The notes under the pieces are model-generated. The model was not told where the DNA came from, made no database searches, and saw only the letters and a list, made by a program, of their open reading frames with translations. Positions 52,898-57,439 of a DNA stretch of 64,000 nt are shown piece by piece. Source of the DNA: an uncultured Flavobacteriaceae bacterium (GTDB lineage Bacteria; Bacteroidota; Bacteroidia; Flavobacteriales; Flavobacteriaceae); the NCBI GenBank assembly GCA_937929935.1, contig CALFUL010000004.1, positions 124,001 through 188,000 on the forward strand, written 5' to 3'. Position 1 is the stretch's first letter. Each line of letters opens with the position of its first letter. A program made the position numbers and the translations under genes.

Positions 52898-53007
52898 GCA
52901 ACCCCGACGCTTTGGGGCCAAAGAATTAGCGACTTCATAAAAATACGCAAACGCTGCGAATAATCACCTTAGCCCCGCATTACGTTTAGCATTGTTATCT
53001 TTAGTGC
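52898..53007. repeat. attC-like palindromic element A between DUF1080 and higA
   Basis: An imperfect palindrome of about 100 bases. Left arm GGGGCCAAAGAATTAGCG pairs loosely with the right arm, which ends GCCCCGCATTACG. The right boundary is GTTATCTTTAGTGC (52994-53007), matching the boundary core of elements B and C (GTTGTnnnnAGTGC). A 51-base stretch (52935-52985) is repeated with one mismatch in element B (54481-54531). Confidence 0.65.
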
Positions 53008-53010
53008 TTT

Positions 53011-53343
53011 TTACGCAACCTTGAATTCTGCGTCATTCATCTGTACGCTAAACTTAATGTTTGCTTTTAGTGCATTAAACACCTTTAAAATCGTTTCAAT
53101 TGTAACATTTTTAGCGCTCCGTTCCAATTTCGATAATTGAGATTTTTGAACACCAATTAATTCCCCAAGTTGTTCTTGAGTCAATTTTCGTTCTTTTCGA
53201 ACTGACTTTATCATTTCTCCAAGAACTTCCATTCGCAAATCAAACTCGTACTTGTCCCTTTCTTCCGTTCCGACTTTTCCGATATCCTTGTCCTTCATTT
53301 GGTCAAGGGTCATCATCTTCATTTTTTTCTTTTTTGTATCCAT
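53011..53343 (-). CDS. HigA-type XRE-family antitoxin
   Basis: 110 residues. A basic N-terminus is followed by FDLRMEVLGEMIKSVRKERKLTQEQLGELIGVQKSQLSKLERSAKNVTIETILKVFNALKANI, a typical helix-turn-helix of the HigA type. In such modules the HigB/RelE toxin gene comes first; here only its last codons remain (53355-53417), so the antitoxin is left without its toxin. Its stop lies 4 bases from the core box of element A, as in the other cassettes. Confidence 0.85.
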   Translation of the reverse strand: MDTKKKKMKMMTLDQMKDKDIGKVGTEERDKYEFDLRMEVLGEMIKSVRKERKLTQEQLGELIGVQKSQLSKLERSAKNVTIETILKVFNALKANIKFSVQMNDAEFKVA

Positions 53344-53354
53344 AACCTTGTTTT

Positions 53355-53417
53355 TTATTGTTCGAAATATTCTGTTCGAATTTGTTTTGCTTTCTCTATT
53401 TCAGCTTTTGGAACTGT
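53355..53417 (-). pseudogene. Truncated HigB/RelE-type toxin, 3' end only
   Basis: On the minus strand, a frame ending in TAA at 53355 reads TVPKAEIEKAKQIRTEYFEQ, the common C-terminus of HigB-type RelE toxins (PKxEIEKAKxIRxEYF). Upstream of it the frame is closed at once and an IS1182-like transposase tail begins. The toxin stop is 11 bases before the higA start, as in intact higBA pairs. The 5' part of the toxin is gone. Confidence 0.7.
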
Positions 53418-53646
53418 AACTCAGTTTATGGGTATGCGTAAGATCAATACAATCGGACTCAAACAGGCCAACAAAGTGATGCACCTTTCTGCAATAGCTT
53501 ACAACCTTAAAAAGTATCTCAAATTTGAACAAAAACGTTCAAAAAGTGAGCAAGGAAAGCTTGCCTTTACACAATTTGTAAAAAGTGTAGTTCAAGACCT
53601 CTTTTTAGTGTTTCTAAGACCTCAAAAACTAACCTTTCAATACTAA
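53418..53646 (+). pseudogene. IS1182-family transposase remnant, C-terminal end
   Basis: The plus strand reads VTQFMGMRKINTIGLKQANKVMHLSAIAYNLKKYLKF and goes on to a TAA. The RKINTIGLKQANKVMHLSAIAYNLKKYLKF block is the conserved C-terminus of IS1182-type DDE transposases. The catalytic core is absent, so the element is dead. The start codon of the track ORF (53299) belongs to unrelated sequence. An inverted repeat (AACCCTTTTATT with AATAAAAGGTT, 53685-53711) after it might be the old IS end. Confidence 0.75.
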
Positions 53647-53728: not shown

Positions 53729-53741
53729 GTTGTGTGCAGTT
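53729..53741 (+). repeat. Cassette boundary core box, remainder of a truncated attC-like element
   Basis: GTTGTGTGCAGTT follows ACCGG at the IS side and is complementary (one G-T pair) to AATTGCACACAAC at 54341-54353, at the other end of the parDE cassette. Only the right end of this element survives. Confidence 0.6.
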
Positions 53742-53742
53742 T

Positions 53743-54042
53743 TTATTCCGCGATTCTTTTCTTCAAATCCATTCGTTCGTGCAATATTCTCGTAATTTCT
53801 ACATAGTTTTCACTTAAGTTCCTGTAGAATATTATGTGTCGATTTGTTTTGATTCCGAGAAGTTGCTCTGATATTCCTTTGTAGTGTTTTCCTAAATCTG
53901 GATTTTCAGCAATTTCCTCACAATTATAAATCAGTTCATTATAATATTTATCAGCTTGTTTTTCAGACCAAACTTCAAAGGTATAATCCCATATTTTCGA
54001 TAAATCCTCAACAGCTTTATTGGTCAGTTTATATTCAGCCAT
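53743..54042 (-). CDS. parE: ParE/RelE-superfamily toxin
   Basis: 99 residues. The ParE pattern is MAEYKLTNKAVEDLSKIWDYTFEVWSEKQADKYYNELIYNCEEIAENPDLGKHYKGI, then KTNRHIIFYRNLSENYVEITRILHERMDLKKRI. ParE toxins inhibit DNA gyrase; some relatives are mRNA interferases. The gene overlaps the upstream antitoxin by 8 bases, the typical antitoxin-first parDE order. The stop lies directly inside the core box region of the cassette. Confidence 0.88.
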   Translation of the reverse strand: MAEYKLTNKAVEDLSKIWDYTFEVWSEKQADKYYNELIYNCEEIAENPDLGKHYKGISEQLLGIKTNRHIIFYRNLSENYVEITRILHERMDLKKRIAE

Positions 54043-54286
54043 TCGAGTTCTTTTTCGCTTTTAAAATTTCCAAATGTTTTTTTGGGTCAAAATCGTGAGC
54101 AATTCCGCTATCGATTCCTTCCTGTATTACATTTTTTAGGGCAATCACTTTACTTTCTTCTTCTTCTAAAAGTCTTAATCCAGCACGAATTACTTCACTA
54201 ACGTTTTTAAATCGACCTTCACTTATGCGACTTTGAACGAATTGGTCAAAATAATTTCCGAGTGATATTGATGTGTTTTTGTTCAT
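54035..54286 (-). CDS. parD: ParD-family antitoxin
   Basis: 83 residues. The N-terminal ribbon-helix-helix part MNKNTSISLGNYFDQFVQSRISEGRFKNVSEVIRAGLRLLEEEE is the standard ParD DNA-binding domain; the acidic, disordered C-terminus (FDPKKHLEILKAKKNSNG) would wrap the toxin. ParD binds its own promoter and represses it. It is the first gene of the module; the promoter would lie in the 60 bases before element B, where CAAATATA (54303-54310) reads TATATTTG on the minus strand, a -7 match. Confidence 0.9.
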   Translation of the reverse strand: MNKNTSISLGNYFDQFVQSRISEGRFKNVSEVIRAGLRLLEEEESKVIALKNVIQEGIDSGIAHDFDPKKHLEILKAKKNSNG

Positions 54287-54340
54287 TTGAAACGAATTTT
54301 CTCAAATATACCAAAAATTGGTATGATTGCAAAATTTTCA

Positions 54341-54554
54341 AATTGCACACAACGGTTGAGCTATGAAAAGTAGGTCAGGCAAGGAAACTTTTCGTTTCCG
54401 TCTGGTCTGCGAGCCAAAGCTTTTTGTTTTGTTTTTATCTTTTTCATTTTAAAGACCAAATCCCAAAGATTTTGCGGACATCATAAAAATACGCAAACGC
54501 TGCGAATAATCACCTTAGCCCCACATTACGTATAGGTTTTGTTGTAGCAAGTGC
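54341..54554. repeat. attC-like palindromic element B between ParDE and HicAB
   Basis: About 200 bases from AATTGCACACAAC (left, parDE end) to GTTGTAGCAAGTGC (right, hicB end). It contains GGAAAC-TTTTC-GTTTCC, a second imperfect stem (CCAAAGATTTTGCG with CGCTGCGAATAATC), and the 51-base stretch shared with element A (54481-54531). The longer size suggests two element halves joined. Confidence 0.7.
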
Positions 54555-54565
54555 TTTGCGTTCTG

Positions 54566-54961
54566 CTATGCCGTTTGCAATAGATTTATTCCAGATAATT
54601 CCTGTCCAATTTGATGTATTCCACTCAAAATTTTATCTGTCTGTTTCGCTGAAGGTTTTTTCGTTCCTGAAACATATTGTGATAATAGAGTAGCATTCAT
54701 TCCTATTTTTTCTGCAAGGAATTTGGCGTTTAAAACTTTGTAAAACTTAAAGAACTGCTTAAAATCAATTTCAAATCCGATGTCATTCGGTTCAACTTTT
54801 ACTTTCTCATCTTCAAAATGTAATTCCGTCGCTTCGTATGTGTTGTTAATCAGTTCAGGAATTGATTGACCAGTTGTAAATATTGGGTAATCCGCTGAAA
54901 ATGCAGAAAATCCAGTACTTGTTTTCTCAACAGTCATTGTAACTTTTTTCTTTTTAGCCAT
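54566..54961 (-). CDS. hicB: HicB-family antitoxin with helix-turn-helix
   Basis: 131 residues. The N-terminal HicB beta domain (VTMTVEKTSTGFSAFSADYPIFTTGQSIPELINNTYEATELHFED) mimics a partially degraded RNase H fold; the C-terminal XRE-like HTH is FLAEKIGMNATLLSQYVSGTKKPSAKQTDKIL. It neutralises HicA and represses the operon. It is the second gene after hicA with 4 bases between, the usual toxin-first order of hicAB. Confidence 0.88.
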   Translation of the reverse strand: MAKKKKVTMTVEKTSTGFSAFSADYPIFTTGQSIPELINNTYEATELHFEDEKVKVEPNDIGFEIDFKQFFKFYKVLNAKFLAEKIGMNATLLSQYVSGTKKPSAKQTDKILSGIHQIGQELSGINLLQTA

Positions 54962-54965
54962 AATC

Positions 54966-55154
54966 CTATTTTTTAATTCCAGCGTCTTTTAGGATTTTCT
55001 TTTCCAAACCTTTACCCATTTCTTGGCTACCGTGATTTGGAAAGATAATTGTTCCCTTTTTCGTATCGTGTCGCATTTTTACGTGCGAACCTTTTTGCGA
55101 TACCGCATACCAACCATCTTTCGTTAATATTTTGTAAAGTTGGGAACATTTCAT
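54966..55154 (-). CDS. hicA: HicA-family mRNA interferase toxin
   Basis: 62 residues, the usual HicA size. CSQLYKILTKDGWYAVSQKGSHVKMRHDTKKGTIIFPNHGSQEMGKGLEKKILKDAGI has the double-stranded RNA-binding-like fold with the catalytic His in GSHVKM. HicA cleaves mRNA; HicB binds it. The gene opens the cassette; 86 bases lie between its start and the core box GCATTTGTTACAAC. Confidence 0.9.
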   Translation of the reverse strand: MKCSQLYKILTKDGWYAVSQKGSHVKMRHDTKKGTIIFPNHGSQEMGKGLEKKILKDAGIKK

Positions 55155-55240
55155 TCAGTTTCGCTTTGATTCAACAATTCAAAGGTAAACTATTATTTAC
55201 TTTTTTACAAACTGAATTATTATGCTAAAACGGATTTTCA

Positions 55241-55387
55241 GCATTTGTTACAACGGTCTCGTATAACCGTCAGTTACGGGTTAGTATGCGTTAATTTTCG
55301 GTTTAGCACTGAAGTTAGCAATTCCGAGTGGATTCGGACGTAGTCGAATCCGCCGTAATTGCGGTTATACATTGTTGTAAATAGTGC
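55241..55387. repeat. attC-like palindromic element C between HicAB and the orphan gene
   Basis: The best-preserved element, 129 bases from ACAAC (55250) to GTTGT (55378), plus core extensions. The outer arms share GTATAACCG and CA(G/A)TTACGG in inverted order. The centre has a smaller hairpin GGATTCG...CGAATCC. The left side belongs to the hicAB cassette (GCATTTGTTACAAC) and the right side to the next cassette (GTTGTAAATAGTGC). Confidence 0.75.
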
Positions 55388-55392
55388 TTTTT

Positions 55393-55734
55393 TCAATTCA
55401 GTTCAAGTATTGGTTTATCAATTCCTCTGCTATAATAAATATATCTATCAATATTCAAATCGTTAAATATTCCGTTATTATAAATTTCGTTCAGTAGTTC
55501 AATTCCAATTTTGTCCAACTTTTCAGTATGAGTTCGGTGAGATTCCAATTCCGTTAAAGTCATTCCTGTATATGGATAATATTCCTCATACCATATTTTT
55601 AGTCTGTTGAGAAAGTCAGATGAGATTTTTGATTGGTCAATATCTATCATATAGTCTCCATTTTCAAGAATCAGAATTCCGTAACATTTTGCAAAATCCT
55701 CTGCAGCTAAAGTCAGTTTAATTTCGTTTTTCAT
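55393..55734 (-). CDS. Orphan cassette gene, unknown function
   Basis: 113 residues, acidic, without signal peptide or membrane span. It starts MKNEIKLTLAAEDFAKCYGILILENGDYMIDIDQSKISSDFL and includes KIWYEEYYPYTGMTLTELESHRTHTEKLDKIGIELLNEIY. I do not recognise the family. It fills one whole cassette of about 400 bases, whose ends are a 13-of-14 inverted repeat. The start is chosen on the ATG after the A/T-rich cassette end. Confidence 0.6.
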   Translation of the reverse strand: MKNEIKLTLAAEDFAKCYGILILENGDYMIDIDQSKISSDFLNRLKIWYEEYYPYTGMTLTELESHRTHTEKLDKIGIELLNEIYNNGIFNDLNIDRYIYYSRGIDKPILELN

Positions 55735-55755
55735 TTTAATCAGCAGAGTTTTTCT

Positions 55756-55769
55756 GCATTATTTACAAC
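55756..55769 (+). repeat. Cassette boundary core box at the truncated element D
   Basis: GCATTATTTACAAC is the complement of GTTGTAAATAGTGC (55374-55387) with one G-T pair. After it, a small hairpin CGTAAATA...TATTTACG follows and the sequence then loses similarity to the other elements before the IS region. Confidence 0.65.
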
Positions 55770-55865
55770 TCGTAAATAAGTCTGTATTTACGCTATTGCT
55801 TCCGAAGATAGTAATTATTTGTTAACTCCCATAAACAAGGAGCATAACATATAATAAGATATCAT

Positions 55866-55917
55866 GCATTTTGTATAACATTTTTAGTGTTTTTGATAAC
55901 CATGTTATACAAAATGC
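55866..55917. repeat. 16-bp perfect inverted repeat with 20-base loop
   Basis: GCATTTTGTATAACAT at 55866-55881 and ATGTTATACAAAATGC at 55902-55917. The TTGTATAAC block recalls the arms of the palindromic elements. It may be a solo element or an IS-related site. Confidence 0.75.
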
Positions 55918-56106
55918 CTGTATGAAAATCAAGTTGTGCTGGGCAGAAAAAGAGTGATTACATATCCCCAAAAGGCAATCATGGCCAAGCATAAAACCCT
56001 CACAAAGCTTTGCTTGATGAGATTTTTCAATAATGAGGTATAAGGGCTCAAGACAAAAAGTTGTGGAGTGAATAAAAATGGTTGAACTTTGAGTTAAAAG
56101 AAATCT

Positions 56107-56460
56107 ATGTTCTCAGACGTTTTATTTTCAGCAGCCCATTTACTACTTCCTGAAGTGATTGTTAACTATTTTGACTTGAAGAGTCATGAGATTAAAGGAG
56201 AAGATCTTCACTTTTATTTTACGGAATCAAATGTAGTTCCTGAGGAGTTTAAAGATGATAATCTACATTCGAAAGGCTTCTTCCCAGAAGCTACAGTTCA
56301 AGATTTTCCTATACGCGGTAAGAATGTATTTCTGCATATAACACGGCGTAGATGGCTTAATAAATCTACAGGAGAAGTAGTTACAAGAGATTGGCAATTA
56401 GTAGCAAAAGGAACTAGAATCACTAGTGATTTTGCTGCTTTTTTAAAAGAAATCAATTAG
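56107..56460 (+). CDS. ISAon1-family transposase N-terminal region protein
   Basis: 117 residues. The stretch MFSDVLFSAAHLLLPEVIVNYFDLKSHEIKGEDLHFYF and FPIRGKNVFLHITRRRWLNKSTGEVVTRDWQLVAKGTRITSDFAAFLKEI is the N-terminal protein of this IS group, probably DNA binding. It ends FLKEIN-stop; the next ORF in another frame continues with the residues expected after FLKEIS, so both were probably one reading frame or are joined by frameshift near the T6A4 run at 56439-56448. Confidence 0.85.
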   Translation: MFSDVLFSAAHLLLPEVIVNYFDLKSHEIKGEDLHFYFTESNVVPEEFKDDNLHSKGFFPEATVQDFPIRGKNVFLHITRRRWLNKSTGEVVTRDWQLVAKGTRITSDFAAFLKEIN

Positions 56461-56518
56461 TGATAACGCCTCTAGTACGGCCGTTGTATCGAAGTTCTAT
56501 GGCGTTAACCCTAGAAGT

Positions 56519-57439
56519 ATGCAAAGGCAATACAAAGATTATTTAAGCGACTTCAAATCTTGGAATCAAAAGAGACATGCTAAAGATTGGATGTTATTTC
56601 CTAAGAATCTAGGAAGTTATCTTTCTTTGGATGAAACCGCTTTTTCTAACGGAGAATTATATACCATACTAACCAACAAAAAAGCAAAAGGAAAGAAAGG
56701 AGCTATAATAGCTATGGTCAAAGGAACCAAAGCCGATTCGGTTATTAAAATTCTTCATAAGATTCCTTTAAAACAACGAAAGAAAGTCAAGGAAGTTACT
56801 TTGGATATGGCTGGTAATATGGGACTCATCGTCAAGAATTCATTCCCACTAGCTACTTTGGTTATAGATAGATTTCATGTTCAAAAATTAGCTTTAGATG
56901 CTCTTCAAGAAATTAGAATCAAATATAGGTGGGAAGCACTCGATACTGAAAATGATGCCATAGAAAAAGCTAGAAGCAAATCTTTAAAGTATAATCCAGT
57001 TCTATTAGATAATGGAGACACCTTAAAACAACTCTTAGCCCGAAGTAGATATTTGCTATATAAATCAAGTAGTAAATGGACTGATAATCAAATAGTAAGA
57101 GCAAAAATACTATTTGAACACTATCCGGATATTGAAAAAGCATACAAGCTATGCCAGAACCTATCCTGGATATTCAACAACACAAAAGATAAAACATCAG
57201 CCCTGATACGATTGGCTAAATGGGATGAAAAAGTACGACAGGCTAAATTTAAAAGCTTCAATAGCATCTCTAGAACGATGGCTATTCATTACAAGAACAT
57301 ACTAAACTACTTTGACAACAGAAGCACTAACGCATCGGCAGAATCTTTTAATGCTAAAATAAAAGCTTTTAGAGCACAATTCAGAGGCGTAAGAAATGTA
57401 GAATTCTTCCTATTTAGATTAACCAATATTTTTGCTTAA
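56519..57439 (+). CDS. ISAon1-family DDE transposase
   Basis: 306 residues from ATG 56519, but the frame is open from about 56447 and reads SISDNASSTAVVSKFYGVNPRS before this Met. The catalytic domain has the first Asp in LSLDETAFSNGELYTIL, the second in LVIDRFHVQKLALDAL, and the late Glu in NASAESFNAKIKAFRAQFRGVRNVEFFLFRL. All three DDE residues appear intact, so the transposase may be active if the two ORFs are translated together. Confidence 0.88.
   Translation: MQRQYKDYLSDFKSWNQKRHAKDWMLFPKNLGSYLSLDETAFSNGELYTILTNKKAKGKKGAIIAMVKGTKADSVIKILHKIPLKQRKKVKEVTLDMAGNMGLIVKNSFPLATLVIDRFHVQKLALDALQEIRIKYRWEALDTENDAIEKARSKSLKYNPVLLDNGDTLKQLLARSRYLLYKSSSKWTDNQIVRAKILFEHYPDIEKAYKLCQNLSWIFNNTKDKTSALIRLAKWDEKVRQAKFKSFNSISRTMAIHYKNILNYFDNRSTNASAESFNAKIKAFRAQFRGVRNVEFFLFRLTNIFA

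Follow-up and report, generated by a model that had tools for sequence, protein, structure and literature searches.

The three gene units described here, which lie within a window of 64,000 nucleotides from an uncultured Flavobacteriaceae bacterium, are very probably cassettes of an integron-type system that is widespread in the Flavobacteriaceae. In the best reading of the sequences, this system would be driven by an integrase outside the IntI family, and the window would hold an integrase-less fragment of it; no integrase gene accompanies the window array, and one is encoded elsewhere in the same genome (G000:C18). Judged from its sequence, the system has an anatomy that works as in an integron; strictly defined, it falls outside that class because it lacks the IntI domain. 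We also consider it likely that the Flavobacteriaceae harbor a second widespread kind of integron, whose integrase, XerA-like and devoid of the IntI-specific domain, recombines cassette ends that are folded as single strands and recognizes a palindromic attI as well as a lengthened R stem carrying a fixed wobble.

Table 1. Cassettes, boxes, hairpins and genes of the array, in window coordinates.
Feature	Position	Strand	Remarks
Broken fourth cassette	52919–53343	−	Right half of a hairpin, start box and gene
Start box, fourth cassette	52994–53007		GTTATCTTTAGTGC
HTH_3 antitoxin-like gene	53011–53343		HTH_3 (PF01381); in broken fourth cassette
Cassette 1, parDE toxin-antitoxin	53729–54353	−	Boxes read directly; homologous body in many genera
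parDE start box	53729–53741		GTTGTGTGCAGTT; read directly
parE	53743–54042		ParE (PF05016); in cassette 1
parD	54035–54286		ParD (PF03693); in cassette 1
parDE end box	54341–54353		AATTGCACACAAC; read directly
attC-like hairpin, long type, about 190 bp	54351–54543	+	AAC...GTT; coding-3′ site of hicAB cassette
Cassette 2, hicAB	54541–55254	−	Body in other genera, edges at boxes
hicAB start box	54541–54554		GTTGTAGCAAGTGC; read directly
Probable hicB	54566–54961		By position only; in cassette 2
hicA	54966–55154		HicA (PF07927); in cassette 2
hicAB end box	55241–55254		GCATTTGTTACAAC; read directly
attC-like hairpin, short type, 125 bp	55252–55376	+	AAC...GTT; coding-3′ site of orphan cassette
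Cassette 3, orphan gene	55374–55769	−	Boxes read directly
Orphan start box	55374–55387		GTTGTAAATAGTGC; read directly
Orphan gene	55393–55734		No Pfam match
Orphan end box	55756–55769		GCATTATTTACAAC; read directly

The preliminary description held that the variable bases at the cassette ends differ between cassettes and pair within each, and direct reading of the three cassettes bears this out. The variable, pairing block stands as such, but it covers about seven bases (positions 1–7) rather than four; only GTT and AAC are invariant in the boxes, and positions 9–11 also pair. On the plus (bottom) strand each cassette thus has the form GTT-N7-G-T...gene...A-T-N7′-AAC, where N7 pairs with N7′. 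Every non-Watson-Crick pair in the three cassettes is a G-T on this strand, which is opposite to the genes, and the one that had been said to lie at a fixed place is at position 8 after GTT in all three; hicAB has one more G-T.

For a larger set, a profile was built from 57 hairpins (nhmmer) and run over the arrays of the same genome and its relatives, where in the relatives' arrays it finds a match every 0.3–2.6 kb or so. Taking each hairpin-to-hairpin stretch in the relatives' arrays as a cassette unit (n = 95), the mean number of Watson-Crick pairs at positions 1–7 within a unit is 5.48 of 7, versus 2.54 ± 0.14 (sd) with permuted partners, the largest of 10,000 permutations being 3.16; within-unit pairing is therefore about 20 sd above the permutation, and the covariation that had been proposed holds in the larger sample. 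The distribution is bimodal, with 70 of the 95 units at 6–7 pairs of 7 and 25 near chance. Twenty-one of these 25 are longer than 1.2 kb, and such non-pairing units may span hairpins that went undetected. As a control, the same bases taken across one hairpin give 2.70 of 7 against their own permutation mean of 2.38 (sd 0.10), which is slightly above chance and far below the within-unit value.

The strand bias of the G-T pairs is likewise upheld in the larger set: position 8 is a G-T in 64 of the 70 well-paired units and an A-C in none, and elsewhere in positions 1–7 and 9–11 of these units G-T exceeds A-C by 10 to 1. Because the sequence at position 8 is fixed, with a G at the start and a T at the end, it should be counted as one conserved feature and not as many independent wobbles. 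The longest open reading frame is on the coding strand in 64 of the 70 cassettes. An independent covariation test used the short-type (125 bp) hairpin; for this second type, 14 of 21 units from other genera are well paired, 13 of them at 7 of 7, and all 14 have the G-T at position 8. Extended complementarity of 9–11 nt, beyond the 7-nt R boxes, has already been described for the ends of integron cassettes (PMC2727003), so that end covariation is what such cassettes should show, and complementarity beyond seven nucleotides is present here with both hairpin types.

Because the ends pair within a cassette and hardly across a hairpin, their pairing is of consequence only after a cassette's own ends have been joined, as in an excised circle. 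DNA energies give the joined (circular) form a more stable fold than the array form in 70 of 70 cases, and within the circular form they favor the bottom (non-coding) strand over the top one in 65 of 70. These energies lend support to the suggestion that a folded single-strand form would be selected after circularization, and the predicted preference for the bottom strand matches the logic of integron attC sites; we infer from the sequences that the cassettes would fold and recombine as single strands. The hairpins are bordered by AAC in 126 of 138 and by GTT in 126 of 138 for the long type, and by the AAC/GTT core in 58 of 58 for the second type, so that the sites combine GTT/AAC cores with an imperfect palindrome, as attC does. 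The long hairpin and the whole array have no match in phages, the short hairpin has none in plasmids, and Rfam gave only sub-threshold matches, none over a gathering score.

Evidence on how the cassettes move comes from parDE across the family, since near relatives share only a single alike pair among 105 cassette bodies. The parDE body occurs in many Flavobacteriaceae genera with the edges of the matches at the boxes. Most copies keep the boxes GTTGTGTGC/GCACACAAC; two loci (L236 and L238) carry parDE with the compensatory box variant GTTCTACGC/GCGTAGAAC, and the boxes at two more (L231 and L234) are near versions of that variant. Of 300 pairs of parDE loci, 19 have coding-3′ flanks (on the left as displayed) that are at least 70% alike, and a single pair has the other flank this similar; on transfer, the parDE cassette thus keeps its coding-3′ attC-like hairpin. 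For example, L220 and L221 are 100% identical over the body and the left hairpin and 69% over the right hairpin, with divergence on the right beginning directly after ACAACG; the left breakpoint of this pair is uninformative because both loci have the same neighboring end box. As far as these alignments indicate, a hairpin that travels with parDE is behaving as in an integron cassette.

The best matches to integron-integrase profiles in the genus sit at array starts and are transcribed with the cassettes. They belong to a family of tyrosine recombinases of about 375 aa, present in 71 of 301 Flavobacteriaceae genomes and 65 genera; named carriers include Winogradskyella ursingii, Seonamhaeicola aphaedonensis, Aequorivita sinensis and a Maribacter MAG. 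These array integrases match TIGR02249 in two pieces with 196–208 bits, below the cut-off of 265, whereas five reference IntI proteins, IntI1 included, match over the full length with 454–505 bits. The spacing from the catalytic Arg motif to HxxR is 94 residues versus 136 in true IntI, and alignment with VchIntIA (PDB 2A3V), also a tyrosine recombinase and 27–28% identical in a fold alignment, places the same gap of about 42 residues in the array integrase, within VchIntIA stretch 178–246. That stretch of VchIntIA holds K209, Y210, W219, P232, H240 and H241, which contact the extrahelical bases (PMC3053210). The additional IntI-specific domain is treated as defining for integrons in one survey (PMC9668308), and by that measure the array integrase is not an IntI-family protein.

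The catalytic domain of the array integrase is over the cut-off of NF040815 (XerA) and is shared with XerA/XerC-like recombinases, from which the protein differs by an extra N-terminal region of about 105 residues (strands and helices in the predicted structure) and by its place at cassette arrays. Archaeal Xer/XerA proteins are its best matches in the PDB and by fold; the predicted structure (pTM 0.57, a moderate confidence for the whole model) most resembles XerA and archaeal Xer proteins, and VchIntIA comes after them. A tree groups the array integrases in a Bacteroidota clade (SH-aLRT 99) that lies away from IntI, but an AU test does not reject a common clade with IntI (p 0.415), and a separate origin is thus not demonstrated. 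Four Bacteroidota integrases of 384–462 aa (L184, L043, L124 and L106) fall outside the main clade and precede a first cassette with paired ends, so that such arrays may not be confined to a single integrase clade.

Sequence downstream of the integrase genes contains a candidate attI. We scanned the 130–200 nt after the gene for GTT plus seven bases whose exact complement occurs downstream, and found such a site paired with one 0.35–1.4 kb further on in 8 of 11 and in 14 of 22 loci with sufficient space (some genomes occur in both sets), versus 36 of 550 and 22 of 810 in controls. The GTT lies about 40–85 nt past the integrase gene (offsets of 40–83 nt) and the paired site is the end of the first cassette, which by sequence places an attI-like site beside the integrase at the point of first-cassette insertion. 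Position 8 is again a mismatch, A opposite C on the coding strand. In 15 of 26 loci the integrase is followed by a palindrome whose arms reach at least 9 bp, in most cases immediately ahead of the GTT; such palindromes are rare in shuffled sequence. Among genera these palindromes (L268–L297) differ in sequence and are often still palindromic.

One alternative is that these are ordinary integron cassettes, moved by a canonical IntI encoded elsewhere in the genome or on a plasmid, with only the cassettes being local. The resemblance of hairpin, boxes and end pairing to attC (PMC2727003; PMC3053210) is what such cassettes would have, but no IntI over the TIGR02249 cut-off occurs in the 40 nearest genomes or in the 301 Flavobacteriaceae genomes, and a different integrase lies in cis, in the same orientation, at array starts; we regard this explanation as very unlikely. 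We give still less credence to the boxes being terminal inverted repeats of small transposon-like elements of the MITE or IS type. Such repeats would likewise show pairing inside one element and differences from element to element, the cassette ends are inverted repeats of about 11 bp, and IS remnants adjoin the array; however, apart from the fixed GTT/AAC and position-8 G-T the boxes vary freely in sequence, the units follow one another head to tail, separated by hairpins, the 105 bodies include a single alike pair, the first unit begins behind an integrase gene, and the same cassette can carry a compensatorily changed box.

Much the same small weight attaches to XerC/XerD dif-type modules (pdif), such as those on Acinetobacter plasmids, which also carry toxin-antitoxin genes; the recombinase here is moreover Xer-like. 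The dif site is a conserved two-arm site of 28 bp, but the only invariant box sequence here is GTT/AAC with position 8, and to our knowledge pdif modules have neither long hairpins nor covariation within units. That the pairing serves cassette transcripts, in an RNA or terminator role, and not DNA recombination is extremely improbable, since, strong as the hairpins between genes are, the pairing ends lie one cassette length apart, within units and hardly across hairpins, the non-coding strand folds better, and no Rfam family exceeds its gathering score.

In the integron-type system that we favor, a cassette would be a gene unit with an attC-like hairpin on its coding-3′ side. On excision its two ends would join as a circle, in which N7 and N7′ pair; the folded bottom strand of the joined ends would be the recombining form, the first cassette would insert at the GTT behind the palindromic attI-like site downstream of the integrase gene, and the array integrase, not IntI, would move the cassettes. 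With integrons (IntI with attI and attC, including sedentary chromosomal forms and CALIN) the flavobacterial arrays share tandem single-gene or toxin-antitoxin cassettes in one direction, variable hairpins bounded by AAC and GTT whose bottom strand is favored in folding, end pairing within a cassette, a hairpin that stays with its cassette, and an integrase with attI at the array start. They differ in an integrase without the IntI-specific insert, below the IntI cut-off and with its gene pointing the same way as the cassettes; in an attI-like palindrome with arms often of 9–12 bp; in a fixed G-T eight bases from the core; perhaps in their hairpins, where conserved single extrahelical bases are not evident in the predicted folds (single-base bulges in the outer stem are uncommon and 2-nt bulges near the spacer common); and in being common in Flavobacteriaceae.

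Unusual features are the lineage of the host, a recombinase outside the IntI family, the palindrome at the attI-like site and the invariant G-T. The literature searched, which reached few subscription journals and preprints, describes no flavobacterial integron, and the apparent novelty of the integrase, the palindromic attI and the fixed wobble is for that reason provisional. Integron surveys report cases in Bacteroidota and, in the sections considered here, name no flavobacterial one (PMC9024848; PMC9668308); the one complete integron that the IntegronFinder 2.0 paper names in Bacteroidetes proper is that of Salinibacter ruber M1 (PMC9024848). Standard surveys work with a single attC model and demand the IntI-specific domain, and may thus have missed a large cassette system in a major marine bacterial family. 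If the interpretation is correct, it suggests that recombination of folded-strand cassettes would not need the IntI insert, it would make the origin of integrons from Xer recombinases testable, and it would give access to many mobile genes, most of them unknown.

Some further observations concern the borders of the window array and its hairpins. The half hairpin of the broken fourth cassette is marked by a 59-nt repeat, 95% identical to 54477–54535. A transposase remnant at 53404–53646 (a weak DDE_Tnp_1_6 match) replaces the end of that cassette and also the coding-3′ hairpin of parDE. An ISL3-type transposase (PF01610) at 55863–57439 adjoins the array, accompanied by a 24-nt inverted repeat (88%) that is probably an IS end; an RNA-OUT match in the same interval does not reach its gathering score. 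Immediately beyond the cassette that comes first in coding order, a perfect inverted repeat at 55770–55795 (CGTAAATA/TATTTACG) resembles the palindrome of the attI-like sites, and it may be due to chance because its spacing to the GTT is 1 nt. The short hairpin (query 1524–1676, window 55248–55400) has matches of about 85–97% identity, often above 90%, in many other genera; these stop short of the flanking cassettes, and the hairpin sequence may therefore spread, or stay uniform, separately from the genes.
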